From Oscillospiraceae bacterium (GTDB lineage: Bacteria > Bacillota > Clostridia > Monoglobales > WRAG01), in assembly GCA_009780345.1 (NCBI GenBank), contig WRAG01000003.1:1-64000 (forward strand): a stretch of 64,000 bases of DNA, read 5' to 3'. The position numbers were made by a program, and so were the translations under genes. Shown one piece after another: positions 8,780 to 49,232 of this stretch (its first letter is position 1; each line of letters begins with the position of its first letter). Below the pieces are notes generated by a model. The model saw only the letters and a program-made list of their open reading frames with translations, did no database searches and was not told the origin of the DNA.

Positions 8780-8810
8780 TGATGTTTGCTCCTTTTTTTA
8801 GGGTCACGCC

Positions 8811-9246
8811 CCTGTAGCGTTTGCGCGGGCGCGCGCGGCGCGTTAAGGACTAGTCCTTAACAATCCAACAAGTTTTTGCGCGCCAAAAACTTGACTAAAA
8901 GCGCCGCGCTCACGAACACGCTCAAAAACCGAGCGCACGTGGCGCGGAAGCTAGTGCGAACAACTCGCCCCTACCCCAAAATATCTCGCGCTTTTAGGCG
9001 CGGGTCGCTCTCGAACGAGCGCGGCGTTTTATCTCGCTAATCTTTCCGCGAATGCGGTTCGCTAACCTTTGTCACCCTCATGTCTAGCGGGGTACCCGCC
9101 CGACGCTTTTTGTCGGGAAGGGTCGCAGACATAGTGGTGACGGTTTTGTAAAACTTTTGCCGTCAAAAGTTTTTCGGGGATTGACAAGGGCTACGATTAG
9201 CCCTTGTCGCTATGCGGCAGCCGCCGCACGCCCTCGGGACGGTCCC
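8811..9246 (+). repeat. Composite hairpin repeat, copy A (dnaK/dnaJ gap)
   Basis: The core is 8843-9208. It opens with a terminal hairpin (TTAAGGACTAGTCCTTAA) followed by CAATCC. A left arm pairs GCGCCGCG...CGTGGCGCG around CGCTCAAAAACCGAGCG. The conserved centre has CTCGCGCTTTTAGGCGCG, CGCTCTCGAACGAGCG and CTTTCCGCGAATGCGG. The right arm (CATGTCTAGCGGGGTACC to CGCAGACATAG) is framed by GTCACC and GGTGAC. The core closes with GACAAGGGCTA...TAGCCCTTGTC. Flanks hold two more small hairpins (TGCGGCAGCCGCCGCA; TCGGGACGGTCCCGA). No conserved reading frame is present. The full gap between dnaJ and dnaK (8780-9288) is otherwise empty. Confidence 0.85.
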
Positions 9247-9271
9247 GAAAAATTCTGCCGTTGTAACGGCA
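9247..9271 (-). terminator. Possible terminator after dnaK
   Basis: On the minus strand, 17 bp beyond the dnaK stop, TGCCGTTACAACGGCA forms a 7-bp stem and is followed by GAATTTTTC. If used, it would reduce read-through into dnaJ. Confidence 0.5.
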
Positions 9272-9288
9272 AAAAATATGTCAATTGT

Positions 9289-11124
9289 TTACTCCTCATC
9301 CACCACTTTATAATCCGCGTCAACGACGGTTTCACCGTTTTCGTTTACTGTCGGCTCTGCTTGTGCTTCGCCGCCTTGCGCAGCCTGTGCTTCTTTATAT
9401 AATTTCTCCGAAATTTCGTAAAACTTCTTCGAAACCGCCTCGGTTTGCGCTTTAACCGCCTCAACGTCGATGGTTTCGGTTTCCAACATAGCTTTCAGCT
9501 TGTCATTCTCCGCGATAACGCCCGCTTTTTCGTCTTCGCTCACCTTATCGCCAAGCTCGTCAAGCGTTTTTTGCGTTTGATAAACCATGCTGTCCGCAGA
9601 GTTACGAACGTCGATTTCCTCTTTGCGCTGCTTATCTTCCGCCGCGAATTTTTCAGCGTCGGCAACAGCCGCATTGATGTCGGCGTCAGAGAGGTTACTG
9701 CTCGCCGTGATTGTGATTTTTTGCTCTTTCCCGGTTCCTAAATCCTTCGCCGCAACGTTAACAATACCGTTTGCGTCGATGTCGAAGCTAACTTCGATTT
9801 GCGGAACACCGCGCGGCGCCGGCGGAATATCGGTAAGGCTGAATCGCCCTAACGTTTTATTACCTGCCGCCATTTCGCGCTCGCCTTGAAGAACGTGAAT
9901 CTCAACGCTGGTCTGTCCGTCCGCCGCGGTGGAGAATACATTGCTTTTCTTGGTCGGAATTGTGGTGTTTCGATCAATCAAGCGCGTGCAAACACCGCCG
10001 AGAGTTTCGATTCCGAGCGATAGAGGCGTTACGTCAAGAAGAACCAAATCTTCAACGTCCCCGCTCAAAACGCCCGCTTGAATTGCCGCGCCCATAGCGA
10101 CGCACTCGTCAGGGTTGATGCCTTTGTGCGGCTCTTTTCCCGTCAATTTCGCAACCGCTTCCTGCACCGCGGGAATTCGCGTAGAACCTCCGACCAATAT
10201 CACTTTATCAATTTTATCGGCGGTCAATCCCGAGTCTGACAACGCCTGCTTCACGCAATCAACGGTTTTCGCAACCAAATCAGCGGTCAATTCGTCAAAC
10301 TTCGCACGTGAAATGGTAATATCCAAATGTTTCGGACCGCTGCTGTCCGCCGTAATAAACGGCAGATTTACGTTTGCGGAAGTGATTCCCGAAAGTTCGA
10401 TTTTCGCCTTTTCCGCCGCCTCTTTCAGGCGTTGTGCCGCCATTTTGTCAGCCATTAAGTCGATTCCTGTTTCCTTTTTAAACTCGTCGGCAAGATATTT
10501 CATAACACGATCGTCAAAATCGTCGCCGCCAAGGCGATTGTTACCGCTTGTCGCGAGAACTTCGAACACGCCGTCGCCGATTTCCAAAATCGAAACGTCA
10601 AAAGTTCCGCCGCCAAGGTCGTAAACCATAATTTTTTGGTCATGATCCTTTTCAAGCCCATACGCAAGCGCCGCCGCCGTCGGCTCGTTGATAATACGCA
10701 AAACTTCTAAGCCCGCGATTTTGCCCGCGTCTTTTGTCGCTTGTCTTTGCGAATCGCTAAAATACGCCGGAACGGTAATAACTGCCTGCGTAACCTTTCC
10801 GCCGAGATAGCTTTCCGCGTCCGCTTTAAGCTTGCCCAAAATCATCGCCGAAATTTCCTGCGGCGTATATTGTTTACCGTCAATGTCAACTTTTCTGTCG
10901 GTTCCCATATCACGTTTGATGGAACTTACGGTTCCGTCAGGATTTGTGATTGCCTGCCGTTTCGCAACTTGCCCGACAAGTCTTTCTCCCGTTTTACTGA
11001 ACGCGACAACCGATGAAGTGGTGCGCGCTCCTTCCGCGTTGGCGATAACGGTGGGCTCGCCGCCCTCCATAACCGCAACGCATGAATTGGTGGTTCCTAA
11101 GTCGATTCCTATCACTTTACTCAT
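9289..11124 (-). CDS. dnaK: Chaperone DnaK (Hsp70)
   Basis: 611 residues from the ATG of [19 protein letters not shown]; an AAAGGAA site lies eight bases upstream, whereas an earlier in-frame start has none. The nucleotide-binding domain shows [49 protein letters not shown] and [11 protein letters not shown]. The interdomain linker reads [17 protein letters not shown]. The substrate-binding domain and lid follow. The C-terminal tail is short and acidic (ADYKVVDEE). It works with GrpE and DnaJ in protein folding. Gaps of about 500 bp filled with composite repeats lie on both sides. Confidence 0.98.
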
Positions 11125-11179
11125 GTATATCATTCCTTTCAATTGTTTTTAAAAATTTAATTTTCAGTTTAAAACCTTT

Positions 11180-11612
11180 TTCGGGTCAGACCCGAGGGAA
11201 TGTGTCCTGCCGGACGGGCGACAAGGGCTCTGCCCTTGCCAATCCCGGTCGCCTATGGACGCAAACGCCACAAACCGGCGATTTGCGCCAAAGCCGGCGA
11301 CAGAAAAACTGGGTTAGCAAACCGCATTCGCGGAAAGACTAGTGAGATAAACCGCCGCTTCCGTTCGCGCATGCGGCTTTTGCCGCCGTAGATACTAAAC
11401 TTAGAGGATATTGTTTGCAGTCCTCATATAGCGGCGCGCTTTTAATAGCGCCATAGCGCGTTTGCGCCGCAAGGTTTTGTTAAAACTTTTTTAAAAGTTT
11501 TTCGGGGTTTGTTAAGGGTATTCGACAACACCCTTGACGACCTTATGCCCTCAGGGCATACCCTAAAAGGTTTTAAGCCCGCGCCCGCAGGCGTAAAAAA
11601 GGGTTTAAGGGC
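11180..11612 (-). repeat. Composite hairpin repeat, copy B (grpE/dnaK gap), inverted
   Basis: The core is 11219-11538, with its centre on the minus strand (GCAAACCGCATTCGCGGAAAG at 11317-11337). One terminal hairpin is ACAAGGGCTCTGCCCTTG. Beside it lies an arm (GTCGCC...GGCGAC, 11248-11302) almost identical to the right arm of copy D. The other arm (GCGGCGCGCTTTTAATAGCG to GCGTTTGCGCCGC, 11431-11470) matches the right arm of copy C. The second end is AAGGGTATTCGACAACACCCTT. The flank TTATGCCCTCAGGGCATACC recurs beside copies D, E and F. It fills the whole grpE-dnaK gap. Confidence 0.85.
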
Positions 11613-11618
11613 ATCGCC

Positions 11619-12125
11619 CTAATTAGCCGATTTCACCATAGAATGCCTTATAACCCTACCTTTATAGCTGTACCCCTTCATAAACTCCTCAACGATCGTG
11701 TTCGCGCCGACAGTGTCATCCTCCACGTGCATTACCGCGTTGTGCAACTCGGGATTAAATTCCTCGCCGACGGTTTTGATTTCCTCGACGCCCAACGCTG
11801 TCAACGCGTCCACAAACTGTTTTTGCACCAACTTCACGCCGTCAAGCAGAGATTTATCTTCGCTTTCAGCACCCGCCGCAACTGCTCGATTCAAATTATC
11901 AAGCACCGGCAAGAACCCCGCAACCACGTCACACACAACGATCACAAACAAATCTTCCTTTTCTTTCTGGCTTCGCTTTTTGAAATTATCAAACTCCGCC
12001 ATAACGCGCAATAGTTTGTCTGTTGCCTCTGCCGCTTGTTGCTCAAAATTGTTTTCGGCTTGTTCGGTTTCTTCTACATTTTCCTCCGTAATTTCCTCGG
12101 AAATTTGATTTTCTGATTTATCCAT
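11619..12125 (-). CDS. grpE: Nucleotide exchange factor GrpE
   Basis: 168 residues from the ATG of MDKSENQISEEITEEN, eight to nine bases after AAGGAGGAG. The start overlaps the end of hrcA by 8 nt, which favours coupled translation. An acidic N-terminal tail leads into the long dimerising helix (LLRVMAEFDNFKKRSQKEKED) and the C-terminal beta domain (GEEFNPELHNAVMHVED; VIRHSMVKSAN). GrpE releases ADP from DnaK. Confidence 0.96.
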   Translation of the reverse strand: MDKSENQISEEITEENVEETEQAENNFEQQAAEATDKLLRVMAEFDNFKKRSQKEKEDLFVIVVCDVVAGFLPVLDNLNRAVAAGAESEDKSLLDGVKLVQKQFVDALTALGVEEIKTVGEEFNPELHNAVMHVEDDTVGANTIVEEFMKGYSYKGRVIRHSMVKSAN

Positions 12126-12882
12126 CGTCAATTTCTCCTCCTTCTTCAAAATCGTCCGCCAATCGGCGGCTTAACTCATTTGTAAGATATTCAAGTTTTG
12201 ACACGATTTTCGAATAATCCATTCGCGTCGGACCGATAATTCCGATGGTTCCCGCGATATTTTTCCCCGCGTTGTACCGCGCAACTACCAACGAGCAATC
12301 CCGCAATTCGGGAATATTGTTCTCGTTGCCGATAATGATACTGACGTTATCGCTTTGCGGGATAACTTTCAACGCTTCGTCAAAATTTTGCTCGTCGTCG
12401 AAAACATGAAGTATGTTTTTCGCCTTTTCAATATCATTATATTCGGGAAATCCGAGAATATTAGCCCGTCCTTCAAGGTACTTGCGGTTTTCGTCCGATT
12501 CAAGCGACGCGATTATCGGCATGCTGGTAAGTTGCGAAAACATTTTGGATATATGCCGAATCAGCCCGTCTTGCTCTTGAAGTTTCATTTCCAGCGTTGC
12601 GCGGAACTGATTGATTTCCTGCGCCGTCATTCGATATTTTTGCATTAAACTGTCAACGTAATACCGATAACCAAGCTGCGACGGAACTCGTCCGGCGGAA
12701 GTGTGCGGCTGCTCAAGCAGTCCCATTTCCTCCAAGTCGCCCATCTCGTTTCGTATAGTCGCGGCGGACAATCCAAGCGGCGAAAGTTTCGCGATACTTC
12801 GTGAACCAACAGGTTCGGCGGTGTTGATATAACCCTCTACAACTGCCTGCAATATTAACTTTTTACGTTCATCTAACTCCAA
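12118..12882 (-). CDS. hrcA: Heat-shock repressor HrcA, compact form
   Basis: 254 residues from a TTG placed eight bases after AAGGTGG, giving the usual start (M)ELDERKKLILQAVVEGYI; two GTG codons 9 and 12 bp upstream are alternatives. The winged-helix DNA-binding domain is normal (TAEPVGSRSIAK, SAATIRNEMGDLEEMGLLEQPHTSAGRVPS as two adjoining parts). The C-terminal end is normal too (VSIIIGNEN, GPTRMDYSKIVSKLEYL). The family is normally about 340 residues. Here the region between FSQLTSM and LEGRANILGFPEY is only about 17 residues, so close to 100 residues of the inserted dimerisation domain and part of the GAF-like domain are missing. It represses through the CIRCE site just upstream. Confidence 0.94.
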   Translation of the reverse strand: MELDERKKLILQAVVEGYINTAEPVGSRSIAKLSPLGLSAATIRNEMGDLEEMGLLEQPHTSAGRVPSQLGYRYYVDSLMQKYRMTAQEINQFRATLEMKLQEQDGLIRHISKMFSQLTSMPIIASLESDENRKYLEGRANILGFPEYNDIEKAKNILHVFDDEQNFDEALKVIPQSDNVSIIIGNENNIPELRDCSLVVARYNAGKNIAGTIGIIGPTRMDYSKIVSKLEYLTNELSRRLADDFEEGGEIDDG

Positions 12883-12908
12883 TCGTCTCACCACCTTTTA
12901 ACATTATA

Positions 12909-12935
12909 TTAGCACTCTATCTAATTGAGTGCTAA
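12909..12935. promoter_or_regulatory. CIRCE operator (perfect)
   Basis: TTAGCACTC, nine bases, then GAGTGCTAA: an exact match to the CIRCE consensus bound by HrcA. It lies just downstream of the -10 box and 26 bp before the hrcA start. It shows that the compact HrcA still has its cognate site and that the operon is autoregulated. Confidence 0.97.
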
Positions 12936-12939
12936 TACT

Positions 12940-12968
12940 ATAATAACATGAAAGGATAAATTTGTCAA
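12940..12968 (-). promoter_or_regulatory. Sigma-A promoter of the hrcA operon
   Basis: On the minus strand, TTGACA and TATTAT are separated by 17 bp. The start point falls at the edge of CIRCE, so bound HrcA would block initiation. Confidence 0.9.
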
Positions 12969-12994
12969 GTGTTTTTTGAAAATTTATTTTTTAA

Positions 12995-13395
12995 TTTGTC
13001 AAGGACCAGCCCTTGACAATCCCGCAAGTTTTTGCGCGGGAAAAACTTGACTAAAACCGTCGCCCTCCCCGACCACAACAAAAACCGTTGTGGCGGAACC
13101 GCGGGCGAAAGTTACTGCAAACATAGCATATTAGGCAGATTAGATCTCGCGCTTTTAGGCGCGGATCGCTCTCGAACGGGCGCAGTGCTATATCTCGCTA
13201 GTCTTTCCGCGAATGCGGTTCGCTAACCCAAATAGCGGCGCGCTTTTAATAGCGCGAAAGCGCGTTTGCGCCGCAAATTTTGGTAAAACTTTTTTAAAAG
13301 TTTTTCGTGGATTGACAAGGACTTCGATAAGTCCTTGTCGCTCTGCGGCAGCAGCCGCACATATGCGCTTGTCAGCGCAAAAATCCCGCACCGCA
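12995..13395 (+). repeat. Composite hairpin repeat, copy C (hrcA/spoIIP gap)
   Basis: The core is 12998-13339. Left end: GTCAAGGACCAGCCCTTGAC, then CAATCC. Left arm: CCGTCGCCCTCCCC, hairpin CCACAACAAAAACCGTTGTGG, then CGGAACCGCGGGCG. Centre: CTCGCGCTTTTAGGCGCG and CTTTCCGCGAATGCGG. Right arm: GCGGCGCGCTTTTAATAGCG to GCGTTTGCGCCGC, as in copy B. Right end: GACAAGGACTTCGATAAGTCCTTGTC split around its loop. A further hairpin, TGCGCTTGTCAGCGCA, follows at 13364-13379. The rest of the gap holds the hrcA promoter on one side and the spoIIP ribosome site on the other. Confidence 0.85.
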
Positions 13396-13467
13396 GGTCA
13401 CAAAATAAAATTTTTTCATAAATTTGTACAAGCGATAATATGATATAACAAGGAGTTGATTCTACAT

Positions 13468-29607: not shown

Positions 29608-29636
29608 GTTGACAACCGATAATTAGTGTGATACAA
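29608..29636 (+). promoter_or_regulatory. Promoter of rpoB
   Basis: TTGACA, 17 bp, TACAAT, about 150 bp before rpoB. rpoB therefore has its own promoter rather than following rplJ-rplL. Confidence 0.88.
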
Positions 29637-29724
29637 TTACTGTCTGCATGTATGTCCAGGAGCATGTCCAAAAATCGACAAACACTTGTGATTAAAGGAG
29701 TTTGAGCGGTTTGGATTAAACTGG

Positions 29725-29753: not shown

Positions 29754-29787
29754 TGCAATTGTTAATTATTTTAATGAGGTGATATAT

Positions 29788-32700
29788 TTGGTAAATCCTG
29801 TGCAATTGGGTAAAAACACTCGGATGAGTTACGCGAAAATTGACGAAGTGCTGGAAATGCCCAATCTGATTGAGGTTCAGAAGAATTCATATCAGTGGTT
29901 TTTGGACGAAGGGATAAGAGAAGTTTTTCGCGATGTGTCACCTATTATGGATTATACGGGGAATTTGGCGCTTGAATTTATTGACTATTCTCTTGACGCT
30001 GAGCCGAAATATTCGGTTGAAAAGAGCCGCGAACGTGATACGACTTACTCTAAGCCGTTGCGCGTTAAGGTTCGCTTGATCAATAAGGAAACCGGCGAAG
30101 TGAAAGAGCAAAGCATCTTCATGGGCGATTTCCCACTTATGACCGAGGAGGGAACATTTATTATCAACGGCGCGGAACGCGTTGTGGTAAGTCAGCTTGT
30201 TCGCTCGCCGTCGGTTTATTTTTCGTTTGCTTTCGATAAAGTAGGTAAAAAACTGTTTACGGCGCAGTTGATTCCAAATCGAGGCGCGTGGCTTGAATAT
30301 GAAACGGACAGCAACGACATTTGCTATGTTCGCGTGGATAGAACGCGGAAAATTCCTGTTACTGTCCTTGTTCGCGCGCTTGGAGTCGGTTCTGACGCGG
30401 AAATTGTAGAATTGTTCGGTGAAACCCCGCAAATTCTTGCGACGCTTGAAAAAGACACGACAAAAACGCGGGAAGAGGGGCTTGTTGAGATTTACAGAAA
30501 GCTTCGTCCCGGCGAGCCGCCTGCGGTTGAGTCGGCGCAGTCGCTTTTGACAAGTTTATTCTTCGATCCGAAAAGATATGACTTGGCGAAAGTCGGACGC
30601 TATAAATTTAATAAGAAACTCGGACTTCTATCTCGCCTTTTGGGGCAGAAGGCTTTCGAGAATGTTGTAAATCCCGAAACCGGCGAGATTTTGGTGAAAA
30701 AAGGCGAAGTGTTCAATCATGATTCGGTGAAAAAGCTTGAATCGGCGGCGGTTAACGTTGTTTATGTCGATGTTGACGGCAAGTCGATTAAGGTAATTTC
30801 AAACAACATGGTGCACATGAAAGATTTCGTTGACTTTGATCCGAAAAAAGAGCTTGGTATTATCGAAAAAGTTAGATACAGCGTGCTTTCCGAGATTATG
30901 GATAAACATAAAAAGATGGACGATGACTTCAAAGCCGAAATAAAAGAGCGAATTGATGAGCTTATTCCGCGTCACGTTTTGATTGACGACATTATCGCAA
31001 GTATCAGTTATATAGGAAATCTTGCATACGGCGTCGGCGACGTTGACGATATCGACCATTTGGGAAATCGCCGCTTGCGCAGTGTGGGCGAGCTTTTGCA
31101 AAACCAATTCCGAATCGGACTTTCGCGCATGGAACGTGTTGTTCGTGAGAGAATGACAATCCAGGGCGCGGAAGATATTACGCCGCAAGCGCTTATCAAC
31201 ATTCGCCCCGTAACTTCGGCGATTAAAGAGTTTTTCGGAAGCTCGCAGTTGTCGCAGTTTATGGACCAAACCAATCCTTTGACGGCGCTTACGCATAGAC
31301 GACGTCTATCCGCGCTTGGGCCGGGCGGACTTTCGCGTGATCGCGCGGGATACGAAGTTCGTGACGTTCATCATACGCATTACGGGCGAATTTGTCCTAT
31401 CGAAACGCCTGAGGGTCCGAATATCGGACTTATCAACTCGCTGAGTACGTATGCGCGCGTGAACGAGTACGGATTTATCGAAGCGCCGTACCAAAAAGTG
31501 AATAAGAAGAAGCAAATCGTTACTGACGAAATCGAATATATGACAGCCGACGTTGAGGATGAATATTTCGTCGCGCAGGCGAATGAAATTTTGAACGAGA
31601 AGCGCGAGTTCGTGAATAATCGTGTTGTTACGCGTTATCGTGACGAATTTTTGGAAGTTGAAAAAGAAAAAGTTGACTATATGGACGTTTCGCCGAAGCA
31701 GGTTGTGTCGGTCGCGACCGCGATGATTCCGTTCCTTGAGAACGACGACGCAAATCGCGCACTTATGGGATCAAACATGCAACGGCAAGCCGTTCCGCTT
31801 CTTATCCCCGAATCTCCAATTATCGGAACGGGAATGGAATACAAAGCGGCGCGCGACTCGGGTGTTGTAATCCTTGCCGAGGACGACGGTGTTGTTGAAA
31901 AGGTTACGGCGAACGAAATTTTGGTGAAATACGGTAAAGGCAAGGTCAGCGAATATAAATTACGCAAATTTATGCGTTCGAACCAAGGAACTTGCATAAA
32001 TCAGCGTCCGATCGTTTCACAGGGCGATAAAGTGAAAAAGGGAGAAATTATCGCGGACGGCCCATCTACCGACAATGGCGAGATCGCGCTTGGACGCAAT
32101 ATGCTAATCGGATTTATGACTTGGGAAGGTTATAACTACGAGGACGCGATACTTATTAATGAAAAATTGGTGAAAGAAGATATTTTCACCTCTATCCATA
32201 TCGAAGAGTACGAACTTGACGCGCGTGACACTAAAATCGGGCCGGAAGAAATTACACGCGACATTCCGAATGTCGGCGAGGACGCGTTGCGCGATCTCGA
32301 CGAGCGCGGAATTATCCGTATCGGTGCGGAAGTTCGCGCGGGCGATATATTGGTTGGAAAAGTTACGCCGAAAGGGGAAACCGAACTTACTGCGGAAGAG
32401 AGATTGCTTCGCGCGATATTCGGCGAAAAAGCCCGGGAGGTTCGCGATACTTCTATGCGAGTTCCTCATGGTGAATCGGGAATTATCGTTGACGTTAAAG
32501 TGTTTAATCGCCTGAACGGCGACGAGTTGGCGCCGGGCGTGAATCAGCTTGTGCGGGTTTACATCGCGCAGAAGCGTAAAATATCGGTTGGAGATAAAAT
32601 GGCGGGACGGCACGGAAACAAAGGTGTTATTTCTCGCATACTTCCGGAAGAGGACATGCCGTTCTTGCCGGACGGAACTCCGCTTGAAATTGTGCTTAAT

Positions 32701-33558
32701 CCGCTGGGGGTTCCCTCTCGTATGAATATCGGTCAGGTGCTTGAAGTTCACTTAGGTTACGCGGCGAAAGCGCTTGGCTGGAAAATCGCAACTCCCGTAT
32801 TTGACGGGGCGAACGAGGACGCGGTTATGGACACACTTGAAGAGGCGGGCTATGACCGTGACGGTAAGACCGTGCTTTACGACGGACGAACGGGCGAACC
32901 GTTTAACAACCGCGTTACGGTTGGATATATGTACTATTTGAAACTTGCTCACTTGGTTGATGACAAAATTCATGCTCGTTCAACGGGGCCATACTCACTG
33001 GTTACGCAACAGCCGCTCGGCGGTAAAGCCCAGTTCGGAGGGCAGCGTTTCGGAGAGATGGAAGTTTGGGCGCTTGAGGCTTACGGCGCGGCATATACGT
33101 TGCAGGAAATTTTGACGGTTAAGTCGGACGATATTGTCGGTCGTGTGAAAACTTACGAGGCTATCGTAAAAGGCGAAAATATTCCGACGCCGGGAATTCC
33201 CGAATCGTTTAAAGTTTTGATTAAGGAATTGCAAAGTTTGTCGTTGGACGTTAAGGTCCTTGACGGCGACGGACAGGAAATTGCGATTCGAGAATCTACC
33301 GATGAAGATCCGGAACCGTTGGCTGTTAACATCGCGGGTCGCGAGGGAGATGTCGCGAAGAGAGAACTTGAAGACTGGAGCCGCGACGATGACGACGATG
33401 ATGACGACGAGGCATTAGCTGACGGTGGTGACGAAACGTATGACAGCGACGCGATGGATGACGAAATTTCCACCGGATTTGAAGTTGTTGACGGAGAAGA
33501 TTTGGACGAGGATTTAGACGACGAATTTGACAGCGACGATGACGACGATTTGATTTAG
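29788..33558 (+). CDS. rpoB: RNA polymerase subunit beta
   Basis: 1256 residues from a TTG six bases after GAGGTG; the earlier in-frame GTG overlaps that site. Strong marks: [37 protein letters not shown], the rifampicin-region segment [20 protein letters not shown] with [12 protein letters not shown] (no common resistance change visible), and [14 protein letters not shown]. The C-terminal tail of about 70 residues is extremely acidic (runs of Asp). Downstream, rpoC is separated by 585 bp of composite repeat instead of the usual short gap. Confidence 0.98.
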
Positions 33559-33576
33559 CACCCTGCGGCGCAGGGC

Positions 33577-34110
33577 TGTCTTGCGCTGACAAGCGCGTAT
33601 TTGCCGCCAACGGCGGCGGGCTTTTAGGGCTTTGCCCTAAAAACTCAATTTCAGAGCGAGGCTCTGTGGCATTGCGCGGGCGCGCGCAGCGCGGCAAGGA
33701 CCAGTCCTTGCCAATCCAGCAAGTTTTTGCGCGGGAAAAACTTGACAAAAACCGTCGCCCTCCCCGCCGCGACCCACGCAAAAAACGCGCGGGTGCCCCG
33801 CTGGCGGAACCGCGGGCGAAAGCTAGTGCAAACAAAGCACTCTATTCAACCAACATCTCGCGCTTTTAGGCGCGGGTCGCTTTCGAACGATAGCGGCACT
33901 ATATCTCGTTAATCTTTCCGCGAATGCGGTTAGCTAACCCAGTTTTTCTGTCGCCGGCTTTGGCGCAAATCGCTGTTTTTTGGCGTTTGTGTCCATAGGC
34001 GACCGGGATTGGTAAGGGCAGAGCCCTTACCGCCCGTCCGGCAGGACATAAGCCCTCAGGGCATCCCCTAAAAAGGTTTTAAACGGGCGCTGTAAGCGCA
34101 AAGAAGAAGT
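33577..34110 (+). repeat. Composite hairpin repeat, copy D (rpoB/rpoC gap)
   Basis: The core is 33693-34031. Left end: GGCAAGGACCAGTCCTTGCC, then AATCC. Left arm: CCGTCGCCCTCCCC, hairpin CCCACGC...GCGCGGGTG, then CGGAACCGCGGGCG. Centre: CTCGCGCTTTTAGGCGCG, GTCGCTTTCGAACGATAGCG, CTTTCCGCGAATGCGG. Right arm: GTCGCCGGCTTTGGCGC to ATAGGCGACC, nearly the same as in copy B. Right end: GGTAAGGGCAGAGCCCTTACC. The left flank has TTAGGGCTTTGCCCTAA and CAGAGCGAGGCTCTG, shared with copy E; the right flank has GCCCTCAGGGC. Nothing else is in this gap. Confidence 0.87.
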
Positions 34111-34143
34111 TTTACCCTACAACGAAAAGAAAGGGTGTATAAT

Positions 34144-37100
34144 TTGAGCGAATTTACTAATTTTGAGGCGATGCGAATCGGTCTCGCGTCTCCGGAGAAA
34201 ATAAGAGAATGGTCTCGCGGTGAGGTGAAAAAGCCGGAGACGATTAATTACCGAACGCTGAAACCCGAACAGAACGGTTTATTCTGCGAGCGGATTTTCG
34301 GGCCTCAAAAGGACTGGGAATGCCACTGCGGAAAGTATAAGCGCGTGCGCTACAAGGGCGTTGTGTGCGATAAGTGCGGGGTTGAAGTTACCCGTTCAAA
34401 AGTGCGCCGTGAACGAATGGGGCATATCGAGCTTGCCGTTCCGGTATCACATATTTGGTATTTCAAAGGAATCCCAAGCCGAATGGGCTTGATTCTTGAC
34501 ATGTCGCCGCGTTCGCTCGAAAAAGTGTTATATTTTGCCGCATATGTGGTAATCGACCCGGGCAAAACCGGACTTGTGAAGTATCAAATTTTAAGCGAGA
34601 AAGAATATCGCGAAGAGCAAGAGAAATACGGCGACCGTTTCCGCGCGGGAATGGGAGCAGAGGCGGTTCTCGAATTGTTACAGGAAATCGACCTGGAAGC
34701 GCAAGTTGAGGAACTTAAATCTACGCTTCAAAGCGCGAAAGGGCAAAAGAAAATCAGAACTACTCGCCGCCTTGAAGTTATGGAATCATTCCGCCAGTCG
34801 GGGAATCTGCCCGAATGGATGGTTATGAGCGTCGTTCCCGTCATTCCCCCGGAAATACGTCCGATGGTTCAGCTTGACGGCGGACGTTTCGCGACAAGCG
34901 ACCTAAACGACCTTTATCGTCGCGTAATCAACAGAAATAACCGTTTGAAGCGGCTTTTAGACCTTGGCGCACCCGAAATTATCGTGCGTAACGAGAAACG
35001 TATGTTGCAAGAAGCGGTTGACGCCTTGATTGACAATGGACGTCGCGGTCGCCCTGTTACCGGGCCCGGAAATCGGCCGCTTAAATCGCTTTCAGACATG
35101 CTTAAAGGAAAGCAAGGGCGATTCCGTCAAAACTTGCTTGGAAAACGTGTTGACTATTCGGGTCGTTCGGTTATCGTTGTCGGTCCGGAATTGAAAATTT
35201 ATCAATGCGGATTGCCGAAAGAGATGGCGCTTGAATTGTTCAAACCGTTCGTGATGAAAAAGTTGGTTAACGACGGATTGGCGCACAATATAAAATCCGC
35301 AAAACGCATGGTTGAGCGCGTTCGCAGCGAAGTTTGGGACGTTTTGGAAGAAGTTATCAACGAACACCCAGTTCTGCTTAACCGCGCGCCGACGTTGCAT
35401 AGACTTGGAATCCAGGCGTTTGAGCCTGTATTGGTTGAAGGACGCGCGCTGAAACTTCATCCGCTTGTTTGTACGGCGTATAACGCCGACTTCGACGGCG
35501 ACCAAATGGCGGTTCACGTTCCTCTGTCCGCCGAAGCGCAAGCGGAAGCGAGATTCTTGATGTTATCGGCGAACAACCTGCTAAAACCGCAGGACGGAAA
35601 ACCTGTCGCGGTTCCGACGCAGGATATGGTGCTTGGCGCGTATTATCTTACCATCGAAATCCCGGGCGAAATCGGTGACGGCAAAATTTTCGCGTCAATC
35701 GAAGAGGCGATTTTGGCATATGACAATAATACCGTCGGGCTTCACGCGCCAATCAAAATTCGGATTGAAAAAGAAATCGACGGCGAGATCAAGACAAAAT
35801 TGATCTCCACAACCGTCGGACGTGCGATATTTAACGAACATATTCCGCAGGATTTAGGATTTGTTGACAGAAATGATCCCGAATTTTTGTTTGACTTGGA
35901 AGTTGACTTCCTTGTCGATAAAAATATGCTCGGCGTTATCGTGGACAAGAACATTAAAACCCACGGAACGACAAACACCGCAATTTTGCTTGACAAAATC
36001 AAGGCGCTTGGCTTTAAATATTCGACGCAAGGCGCGATTACAATCGGGATTGCGGATATGGTTATCCCCGAGGCGAAAACGAAACATCTTGAAGCCGCCG
36101 AGGAGAAAATCGAAACCATTATCAAACAATTCCGCCGCGGTATGCTGACCGACGAAGAGCGGTATCACGCGGTTATCAATACTTGGACCGAAACGAACAA
36201 CAATATTACCAAAGCGTTGATGGATAACCTTGATCGCTTGAATCCGATATACATGATGGCTCATTCGGGCGCGAGGGGAAGTATCAATCAGATTCGTCAG
36301 CTTGCGGGAATGCGCGGACTTATGGCGGATACGTCGGGTAGAACAATTGAAATCCCGATTCGCGCGAACTTCCGTGAGGGACTGAACGTACTTGAGTACT
36401 TTATCTCGACGCATGGAGCGCGTAAAGGTCTTGCCGACACCGCCCTTAGAACAGCGGACTCGGGATATCTGACCCGTCGTTTGGTTGACGTTTCGCAAGA
36501 TGTTATCGTTCGCGAAATTGACTGCGGAACGGTTGAGGGAATTACTGTTATGGACATCAAAGACGGAAACGAGATGTTAGAGCCGCTTATCGACCGTTTG
36601 CCGGGAAGATGCGTGATTGAAGATGTTGTCGTTCCGGGCAAGAAGAAAGTAATCGTAGCGGCGGGAGAATATATTTCTGATTTACAGGCGCAAGAAATTG
36701 TTGACGCAGGGGTTACCGAAGTTAAAATTCGCTCTGTGTTGAAGTGTCATAGCGAAATCGGCGTGTGCGCGAAGTGTTACGGCTATGACTTGGCAAGCGC
36801 ACAACCTGTTAACGTTGGCGAAGCTGTCGGAATCATTGCCGCGCAATCCATCGGCGAGCCGGGAACGCAGCTTACGATGAGAACCTTCCACACCGGCGGT
36901 GTCGCGGGCGCGGACATCACGCAAGGTCTTCCGCGTGTTGAGGAACTTTTTGAGGCGCGAAAACCGAAAGGGCTTGCAATCGTTACCGAAATCGACGGAA
37001 AAGTTAAGTTCAGCGATAACAAGAAAAAGCGCGAAATTATCGTTATGAACGACAAAACCGGCGATATGGAAACGTATCTTATCCCTTACGGTTCAAGGAT

Positions 37101-37656
37101 TAAGGTAAAAGAGGATGACGAGCTTTTGGCGGGCGACGAGCTTACCGAAGGTTCAATCAATCCTCATGACATATTGAAAATCAAGGGCGAGACCGCGGTG
37201 CAAAACTACTTGATTCAAGAAGTTCAGCGTGTTTACCGTATGCAGGGTGTTGATATTAACGATAAGCATATCGAAGTTATCGTTCGTCAGATGTTACGCA
37301 AACTGAAAATTGACGACGCGGGCGATACCGGGCTGCTATCCGGCGGATATGTCGAGCGGCTCGAGCTTGCGCGTGAAAACGCGGCGGCGGAAGCAAGCGG
37401 CGGTATGCCGGCGCAATGCACGGTTACACTTTTGGGGATTACGAAAGCATCGCTTGCAACGGATTCATTCCTATCTGCGGCGGCGTTCCAGGAAACTACA
37501 AAAGTGTTGACAGACGCGGCGATTAAAGGTAAAATTGATCCGTTGATGGGGCTGAAAGAGAACGTAATCATCGGAAAACTTGTCCCTGCCGGAACAGGAA
37601 TGCCGCAGTATCGTGATATAGATGTCTACACCACATCAGGCTATACGGATGAATAA
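34144..37656 (+). CDS. rpoC: RNA polymerase subunit beta'
   Basis: 1170 residues from a TTG eight bases after AAAGGG; a GTG three codons upstream abuts the site. The N-terminal zinc site reads [20 protein letters not shown]. The catalytic Mg-binding loop NADFDGDQM is intact. Later marks are [18 protein letters not shown], the trigger-loop region [11 protein letters not shown] and the second zinc cluster with [13 protein letters not shown]. Length is normal for Firmicutes. It is part of the rpoB-rpoC-L7Ae-rpsL-rpsG-fusA run, but a repeat parts it from rpoB. Confidence 0.98.
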
Positions 37657-37766
37657 AATTTCGGCACATTTTGGATTTTTCGCTCCCTTGCGTACCAATG
37701 TACGCGGCGGGACACAGCGCGCAAAAGCGTCGCGGCTCCAAAATCCAAACTGCACTCGAAATTTTA
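37655..37766. repeat. Palindromic intergenic element, copy P2
   Basis: Ends AAAATTTCGGCACATTTTGG and the near-complement CCAAACTGCACTCGAAATTTT enclose a GC-rich middle with the hairpin GCGTACCAATGTACGC (37690-37705). The left arm overlaps the rpoC stop codon. Confidence 0.7.
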
Positions 37767-37808
37767 TCCATACTGAATTAACGTTTGGTTTTGAGGAAGG
37801 AAAAATGT

Positions 37809-42713: not shown

Positions 42714-42751
42714 AAAATGCGCTTTAGGCTTATGCTTAAAGCGCATTTTTT
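42714..42751 (+). terminator. Terminator of tuf
   Basis: AAAATGCGCTTTA, loop, TAAAGCGCATTTTTT. Perfect 13-bp stem with a T run, 26 bp after the stop. Confidence 0.92.
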
Positions 42752-43325
42752 AGGGCTTTGCCCTAAAAACCCATTTTCAGAGCGAGGCTCTGCGGGCATC
42801 ACGGCTGCGCCGTGGCATTAAGGGTGTTATCGAACACCCTTAATAATCCCCGAAAAACTTTTGACGGCAAAAGTTTTACCAAAACCGTCGCCACTATGTC
42901 CGCGACCCACAAGTCAAAAAGCGACTTGCGAGTGCCCCGCTGGACATGAGGGCGACACAAGTTAGCGAACCGCATTCGCGGAAAGATTAACGAGATATAG
43001 CACTGCGCTCCGCTCGAAAGCGACACGCGCCTAAAAGCGCGAGATATTGTTTGGTTAGGGTGCGTTGATTGCAGCAACTTTCGCCCGCGGTTCCGCCACA
43101 ACGGTTTTTGTTGTGGTCGGGGAGGGCGACGGTTTTTGTCAAGTTTTTGACGCGCAAAAACTTGCTGGATTGGCAAGGACTGGTCCTTGCCGCGCCGCGC
43201 GCGCCCGCGCAATGCCCTAGGGCATACCCTAAAAGGTTTTAAGCCTGCCGCCGCAGCGGCAAAAATGGTCTAAGGCGCAACGCGCCTTGACCCCGCGTCC
43301 GCAGGCGCAAAAAAGGCATAGGACT
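42751..43325 (-). repeat. Composite hairpin repeat, copy E (tuf/pth gap), inverted
   Basis: The core is 42817-43191, with the centre on the minus strand (ACCGCATTCGCGGAAAG near 42969; GCGCCTAAAAGCGCGAG near 43027). Plus-strand left end: ATTAAGGGTGTT...AACACCCTTAAT. First arm: CTATGTCCGCGACCCAC, AAGTC...GACTT, GTGCCCCGCTGGACATGAG, framed by GTCGCC and GGCGAC, as in copies A and F. Second arm: CCGCCACAACGGTTTTTGTT..., as in copy C. Right end: GGCAAGGACTGGTCCTTGCC. Flanks: TAGGGCTTTGCCCTA, CAGAGCGAGGCTCTG, TGCCCTAGGGCA. The last 90 bp before pth hold smaller GC-rich hairpins. Confidence 0.86.
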
Positions 43326-43351
43326 TCGCCCTAACGAAAGGAACACCAACC

Positions 43352-48700: not shown

Positions 48701-48730
48701 AAAAAAGAGTGCGAAAGCACTCTTTTTTTT
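48701..48730 (+). terminator. Terminator of the foldase gene
   Basis: AAAAAAGAGTGC, loop GAAA, GCACTCTTTTTTTT. Confidence 0.95.
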
Positions 48731-49232
48731 AGGGCTTCGCCCTAAAACCCGATTTTCAGATCAAGTCGTTGCCGCCTTTTGCCCTTGTCAGGGCAGGATG
48801 ACAAGGATTTATCGAAATCCTTGTCAATCCACGAAAAACTTTAAAAAGTTTTATCAAACATGCGTCGCACACGCGCTATGGCGCTATTGTGACCGCGCCG
48901 CTATAAAGATGTGCAAACATCTACGTATTAGTCAAGTGCCTACGGCGGCAAAAGCCGCAATGCTCAACTGAAAGCGGCAGTATATCTCGCTAGTCTTTCC
49001 GTGAACGCGGTTAGCTAACTTCTGTCGCCCTCATGTCCAGCGGGGTACCTGCGCGCTTTTTGCGTGAGTCGCGGACATAGTAGGCGACGGTTTTGATAAA
49101 ACTTTTGCCGTCAAAAGTTTTTCGGGGTTTGTCAAGGGTATTCGACAATACCCTTGACGGTCTTATGCCCTAGGGCATACCCTAAAAAGGTTTTAAGCTA
49201 GCCCCAGCAGCCACAAAAAGATTCGCCCTAAA
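48731..49232 (+). repeat. Composite hairpin repeat, copy F (foldase/ABC permease gap)
   Basis: The core is 48800-49158. Left end: GACAAGGATTTATCGAAATCCTTGTC in two halves, then AATCC. The left arm is diverged (GCGTCGCACACGCGCTATGG, AGATGTGCAAACATCT). The centre keeps ATCTCGCTAGTCTTTCCG but changes to CCGTGAACGCGG; the first centre hairpin is lost. Right arm: CATGTCCAGCGGGGTACC to GCGGACATAG framed by GTCGCC and GGCGAC. Right end: GTCAAGGGTATTCGACAATACCCTTGAC in two halves. Flanks: AGGGCTTCGCCCT and TGCCCTAGGGCA. The gap (48687-49252) holds nothing else besides the terminator. Confidence 0.82.

Follow-up and report, generated by a model that had tools for sequence, protein, structure and literature searches.

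The rpoB-rpoC locus

The window, i.e., the whole stretch of 64,000 nucleotides that was analysed, carries rpoB and rpoC as adjacent genes on the + strand, with a promoter ahead of rpoB.

29609..29637, + strand: rpoB promoter of the sigma-70 type, TTGACA-17-TACAAT (11/12 consensus matches, extended -10)
29779..33558, + strand: rpoB (TIGR02013, 1777 bits)
34144..37656, + strand: rpoC with a TTG start (TIGR02386, 1855 bits; the alignments of relatives begin at the TTG codon)

Between the end of rpoB at 33558 and the TTG codon of rpoC at 34144 lies a spacer of 585 bp (33559-34143). A preliminary description of this DNA, made from the sequence alone, had reported 585 bp of repeat with many strong hairpins at a place where a short spacer is usual, and our results agree with it on each of these points. 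The spacer consists of repeat sequence, and on either strand its predicted folding is far stronger than that of shuffled sequences (z = -5.2 and -5.7). At the 29 rpoC loci compared within the order (28 genomes), rpoC follows rpoB after 32-121 bp, apart from one gap of 300 bp. Among 76 further rpoB loci, mostly from Bacillota and Actinomycetota, gaps have a median of 60.5 bp and reach 461 bp at most, and 585 bp exceeds them all. The long gap is not shared by relatives, a point that the preliminary description had raised against itself; since the gaps within the order are this short, the insertion is a lineage-specific one. In a tree of rpoB the genome falls within Clostridia, close to the named Oscillospiraceae but not among them.

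Architecture of the element

The spacer contains one copy of a repeated element, which is divided as follows.

33559..33671, + strand: outer left flank of interchangeable hairpin modules, which are also seen, differently ordered, at the ends of other genes
33561-33575, 33603-33617, 33622-33642 and 33652-33666, + strand: hairpin modules of the left flank
33672..33766, + strand: left arm (covariance model R1, 88.5 bits; covarying stems)
33693-33712, + strand: hairpin c of the left arm
33713-33719, + strand: linker AATCCAG of the left arm
33720-33744, + strand: hairpin d of the left arm, followed by the tail ACAAAAACCGTCGCC
33767..33943, + strand: conserved dyad centre (consensus of 44 copies; core pattern)
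33859-33874, + strand: central hairpin CGCGC-TTTTAG-GCGCG
33914-33931, + strand: core CTTTCCGCGAATGCGGTT
33944..34060, + strand: right arm, the inverted counterpart of the left arm (opposite-strand profile match 34035-33818, 52 bits; module list)
34011-34031, + strand: right-arm hairpin GGTAAGGGCAGAGCCCTTACC
34061..34143, + strand: degenerate right flank and Shine-Dalgarno region of rpoC, AAAGAAAGG (read from the sequence)

The element is a mosaic of ~0.4-0.6 kb in which two inverted copies of a two-hairpin unit surround a conserved centre. The profile of the core also matches the opposite strand in 47/60 copies, and the element therefore has dyad symmetry. Read inwards, each arm carries hairpin c (type CAAGGA-CCAG-TCCTTG), the linker AATCC(A/C)GCAA, hairpin d (type CAAGTTTTT...AAAAACTTG) and the tail ACNAAAACCGTCGCC. 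The centre includes CTCGCGC-TTTTAG-GCGCGGG and the core, which is the best conserved part of the element. Outside the arms are strings of short hairpins from a small vocabulary (TTTTAGGGCnnnGCCCTAAAA, GCGCCCnnnGGGCGC, TAAGGCGCAACGCGCCTTA, CAGAGCGAGGCTCTG and others), whose order varies and which are usually mirrored at the opposite end. Copies are on average 517 bp long (sample of 59), with about eight hairpins each.

The element typically extends from close to the stop codon of the preceding gene, within a few bases of it, to a point shortly ahead of the next Shine-Dalgarno sequence, and starts a few nt to ~30 nt from the neighbouring gene ends; in the rpoB-rpoC spacer, the module string begins 3 nt past the stop codon of rpoB. 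Neither sharp ends nor a target-site duplication were seen when the flanks were read by eye. The dyad is clear, but its limits are blurred and made of modules. Occasionally, a repeat module supplies the stop codon itself (GCGCCTTAG, followed by ACC). Called genes end in this way at two loci (L131, ~2876; L137, ~2536), where modules may have replaced the 3' ends of genes or the gene call may run into a module.

Pairwise identity among 44 copies has a median of 71% and no pair reaches 95%, although near-identical recent copies could be absent, as the draft often breaks at copies. Variation of the left arm across copies follows that of the centre (Mantel r = 0.68), while the right arm correlates with neither the left arm nor the centre (r = -0.17 and 0.00, values that its loose alignment could have lowered). 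This independence of the right arm suggests that copies have exchanged arms with one another.

Copies across the genome

Searching with the 18 nt core and allowing up to two mismatches gave 136 sites genome-wide, 68 on each strand, and none with the reversed pattern as control. The arm model R1 has at least 136 matches, and with the spacer itself as query, blastn gave 71 or more matches in the genome (2.05 Mb). The closest other copy among the matches listed is 84% identical over 508 nt, and copies within the window align at 66-98% identity over stretches of 40-200 nt. We estimate the number of elements at ~130, which is below 136 because a few copies have the core on both strands. Together with the mean length, this estimate corresponds to ~3% of the genome. 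The draft consists of 59 contigs and copies are found at many contig ends (e.g., C6, C17, C22, C26, C30, C31, C33, C42 and C49), so the assembly breaks there and near-identical copies may be missing from it.

The genomic context was analysed in a sample of ~274 kb chosen around copies. Both neighbours could be placed for 50 of the 60 sampled copies, and these genes are tandem in 42 cases, convergent in 5 and divergent in 3; the remaining copies lie at contig or stretch ends. Between tandem genes, 23 copies point in the same direction as the genes and 19 in the opposite direction, i.e., orientation relative to genes is random. Five further copies lie in the window.

8808..9233, + strand: copy between dnaK and dnaJ, oriented against the genes (alignment, profile, gene context)
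11170..11621, - strand: copy between grpE and dnaK, oriented like the genes (alignment, profile, gene context)
12983..13406, + strand: copy between divergent genes, upstream of the hrcA promoter and a CIRCE-like operator (profile, gene context)
42741..43333, - strand: copy after tuf (alignment, profile, gene context)
48726..49219, + strand: more divergent copy between convergent genes (alignment, profile, gene context)

The implication of the preliminary description that the split between rpoB and rpoC is special finds no support in this comparison, as grpE and dnaK as well as dnaK and dnaJ are separated in the same way. The hrcA-grpE-dnaK-dnaJ operon is interrupted twice, with the third copy just ahead of the hrcA promoter (8808-13406 in all). 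This promoter (TTGACA-17-TATTAT) is followed by TTAGCACTC-N9-GAGTGCTAA, which we take to be the CIRCE-like operator. Elsewhere in the genome, copies lie between two ECF-transporter ATPase genes and between a RodA/FtsW-type gene and a PBP2-type gene. A 137 aa open reading frame at 42799-43212 lies wholly within a repeat copy and is probably spurious.

Probable read-through of the spacer

The preliminary description had suggested that either transcription reads through the folded spacer or rpoC has a separate start within it, and had seen no clear consensus promoter just ahead of rpoC. The latter observation was confirmed by a scan of 33300-34300, which gave no promoter-like site scoring 9/12 or more. 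On the gene-sense strand of 41 tandem copies, there are fewer promoter-like sites than in shuffles (1 vs 4.6) and few strict terminator-like sites (2 vs 0.7 expected), in simple scans that are blind to Rho-type and non-consensus signals. A looser scan flagged three sites in the rpoB-rpoC spacer (+ strand) as weakly terminator-like.

Of the two suggestions, read-through is the one we clearly favour. Since promoter-like sites are depleted, and terminators are rare despite about eight hairpins per copy, the best reading is that rpoC is most likely transcribed by read-through from the strong rpoB promoter rather than from a promoter of its own, and the site at 29609-29637 is the likely source of the rpoB-rpoC transcript. 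The simplest reading of the depletion is that selection would have kept start and stop signals out of the element. A highly folded insert of half a kilobase thus seems tolerable between two genes that must yield equal amounts of product, and the same tolerance is seen between successive genes of the dnaK operon. With such inserts tolerated in the rpoBC and dnaK operons, the cost of long structured operon spacers becomes directly testable.

Related hairpin pairs in other Clostridia

By blastn, the element has no match in 50 other genomes of the same order and was found in its own genome only, which is the sole member of its family in the comparison set. A covariance model of the c-d unit gave three matches in a genome from another family (G200), where the unit lies within a multi-copy repeat of ~190 bp. 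A second model, built from these matches and one more genome, matches 17 of 391 genomes of the class, including our own, in ten families; chance would give an estimated ~0.4 genomes at this threshold, with E-values being rough. Five of the 17 carriers have at least 12 scored matches, with no more than 14 scored per genome. The 37 matches that were aligned share the order stem 1 - ANCC(C)NGCAA - stem 2 - AAAACTTT, a pattern that weaker matches, notably those in family f81, fit less well. Outside the present genome, 11 units are in sense and 10 in antisense orientation. As a multi-copy repeat of intergenic regions, the two-hairpin unit with its conserved linker occurs in about ten clostridial families, to which it appears to be common without having been named.

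The c-d unit of our genome fits the class-wide pattern, and from the shared order, linker and tail we infer common descent. In 15 other genomes bearing related hairpins, the rpoB-rpoC gap is 8-91 bp, and a long gap as a general trait of carriers was therefore rejected. Because of these short gaps, the large mosaic would be a local elaboration in this lineage.

In Rfam 15 there was no gathering match for the element in the window, and within the spacer no match had E ≤ 1, by which a structured RNA of known family was rejected. A phage or plasmid origin was likewise rejected, as no match was found. Searches of open-licence PMC papers by words and by sequence strings gave no prior description of the motif; the account of tagged palindromes in prokaryotes in PMC3733652 does not mention Firmicutes or Clostridia. 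On the basis of the open-licence literature, we provisionally regard the hairpin-pair repeat as undescribed.

Covariation of the stems

RNA under selection should tolerate G-U pairs on its own strand, and the pattern of compensatory changes in the hairpin pair can separate the upkeep of a DNA palindrome from selection for RNA structure. Among the 34 distinct c-d units taken from our genome there are 44 double-changed cells vs 15.3 in shuffles, and a single cell is changed on one side to G-U only. The 37 aligned class-wide units have 135 double changes vs 33.8 in shuffles, with 7 G-U and 6 A-C cells. Both sets of counts come from structure-fitted alignments and pool inherited with independent changes. 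In an unbiased count of stem mismatches on the gene-sense strand, G-U and A-C do not differ significantly (22 vs 15, p = 0.32). A strand-specific RNA role was rejected, as there is no bias between G-U and A-C on the gene-sense strand or class-wide. The near absence of G-U, the missing strand bias and the random orientation point to complementarity being kept at the DNA level, i.e., to a palindrome rather than an RNA. The avoidance of G-U could in part be due to GC-rich stems and few independent events.

In E. coli, the template-switch correction of quasipalindromes, as outlined in PMC7202029, can bring the arms of a palindrome into agreement by changing one of them, and gives compensatory pairs without selection for RNA structure. 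This is a mutational process and not a repeat family, and we propose it here as a possible means of stem upkeep; since the arms are matched in a single event, it would explain the missing intermediates. Alternatively, DNA hairpins could be recognised by a protein, which would also explain the conserved linker. Conservation of ANCC-GCAA across families seems to go beyond neutral palindrome upkeep, and a binding function is possible.

Interpretation and alternative explanations

Collectively, we favour, at a probability of about two in three, a spacer that is a lineage-specific, non-coding, interspersed mosaic DNA element which is read through and whose stems are kept at the DNA level. Two inverted units of the Clostridia-wide type flank the conserved centre, and interchangeable small modules fill the remaining space as far as the stop codon of the gene before and the Shine-Dalgarno sequence of the gene after. 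The short gaps of relatives suggest that the element entered the spacer after the split from the other families of the order. RNA polymerase would pass through it from the rpoB promoter, and the element would be a tolerated, roughly transcription-neutral passenger, because strict terminators and promoters are few, both orientations occur and several normally co-transcribed operons hold copies. Perfect stems would be upheld by template-switch repair or by protein recognition of the DNA hairpin, and recombination would swap arms and modules between copies, as supported for right versus left arms. More tentatively, and short of even odds, the paired palindromes may represent an undescribed class-wide repeat with stems that covary strictly as DNA, recognised and dispersed or maintained by a non-Y1 system acting on DNA hairpins; in this lineage the repeat would have grown into half-kilobase mosaics that colonise core operons such as rpoBC and dnaKJ.

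A mobile origin could be proposed in two forms. The high copy number and the palindromic, intergenic, mosaic layout with inverted units would suit a REP/BIME-type element moved by a Y1 (HUH) TnpA-REP transposase, as this arrangement is outlined for REPs and BIMEs in PMC2817692 and PMC3116915. Such mobilisation is largely ruled out by the sole Y1_Tnp match in the genome, which has an in-frame TAA stop and no element nearby, and by the other carriers of the unit, as Y1_Tnp was undetected in 10 of 16, including those richest in copies. It is highly improbable as an account of the spacer, and a REP-type Y1 transposase is unlikely to have been the original spreader. The single Y1 transposase gene (C31:6324-6680) is presumably IS200-like. 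The other form assumes degenerate, non-autonomous MITE-like elements, once moved by a classical IS that is now lost or went undetected in a genome-wide transposase search covering the Y1 family. Interspersed non-coding copies with an inverted-repeat layout, in both orientations and tolerated between genes, are in line with this. Against it stand the absence of visible sharp ends and target duplications, the size of 0.5 kb compared to 100-200 bp for typical bacterial MITEs (PMC2229807), and the 44 copies without a pair at 95% identity or more, although a short-read assembly may lose identical copies. We consider a MITE-like past unlikely, while giving it clearly more weight than a Y1 transposase.

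REP hairpins stabilise upstream mRNA in E. coli, and a structured cis-regulatory RNA, acting as attenuator, mRNA stabiliser or processing site to tune rpoB and rpoC separately, would account for the strong folding on both strands, the covarying stems and the position of most copies between co-directional genes. Sense and antisense copies are about equally frequent here (23:19) and elsewhere (11:10); with G-U no commoner than A-C and no match in Rfam, a regulatory RNA is about as doubtful as a MITE. A promoter for rpoC within or at the edge of the element would have room enough in 585 bp, and TATAAT is found at 34138-34143. However, this hexamer abuts the TTG start, so that a transcript would begin inside rpoC, and it has no -35 box upstream; with promoter-like sites depleted across the family and none found in the spacer scan, a separate promoter was rejected as very unlikely. 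The least probable explanation is an assembly artefact, which the preliminary description had also raised and which the fragmented draft with copies at contig ends could suggest. The flanks of the spacer are true neighbours in all relatives examined, and its sequence is divergent, being at most ~84% identical to any other copy among the matches listed, so reads should place uniquely and the insertion stands.

Relation to known repeats

The element fits best among the bacterial interspersed palindromic repeats, as a large mosaic variant of them. With the BIMEs and REPs of enterobacteria it shares high copy number, intergenic position, palindromic and mosaic structure, both orientations and some copies within operons. 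It differs from them in its size of ~0.5 kb, many hairpin types, dyad centre, occurrence in Clostridia and lack of a Y1 TnpA-REP partner. While REPs are palindromes of 20-40 nt with a GTAG or CGTC tag, the present units are palindromes of 20-25 nt whose conserved neighbour is the linker ANCC-GCAA. CGTC is present in the unit tail of our genome (ACCGTCGCC) and absent from the class-wide pattern. Like bacterial MITEs (Correia/NEMIS, ERIC and RUP), the element is a non-coding, interspersed inverted repeat with strongly folding predicted transcripts and intact neighbours, but it is 0.4-0.6 kb long, consists of a string of local hairpins instead of one terminal stem, and no discrete terminal repeats or target duplication were seen. 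The neisserial dRS3/RS arrays and pneumococcal BOX elements are, like the present element, intergenic and modular, with subunits that can be interchanged and whose order varies. To our knowledge the element is unrelated to them, and it differs in its fixed centre with mirror-symmetric arms.

Inverted sequences of other kinds were observed next to rpoC in two places. In the window, the stretch from rpoC to the small gene before rpsL (37657-37790) holds a different long inverted repeat of the type AAAATTTCGGCAC...GTGC..GAAATTTTAT, which lies outside the family of the rpoB-rpoC spacer element. In Enterococcus alcedinis, the rpoB-rpoC gap of 461 bp (~9580-10040 of its locus) is made up of three hairpins, long and unrelated, with a ATCCCGTAGA..AAAGGTGAT linker that is repeated between them.
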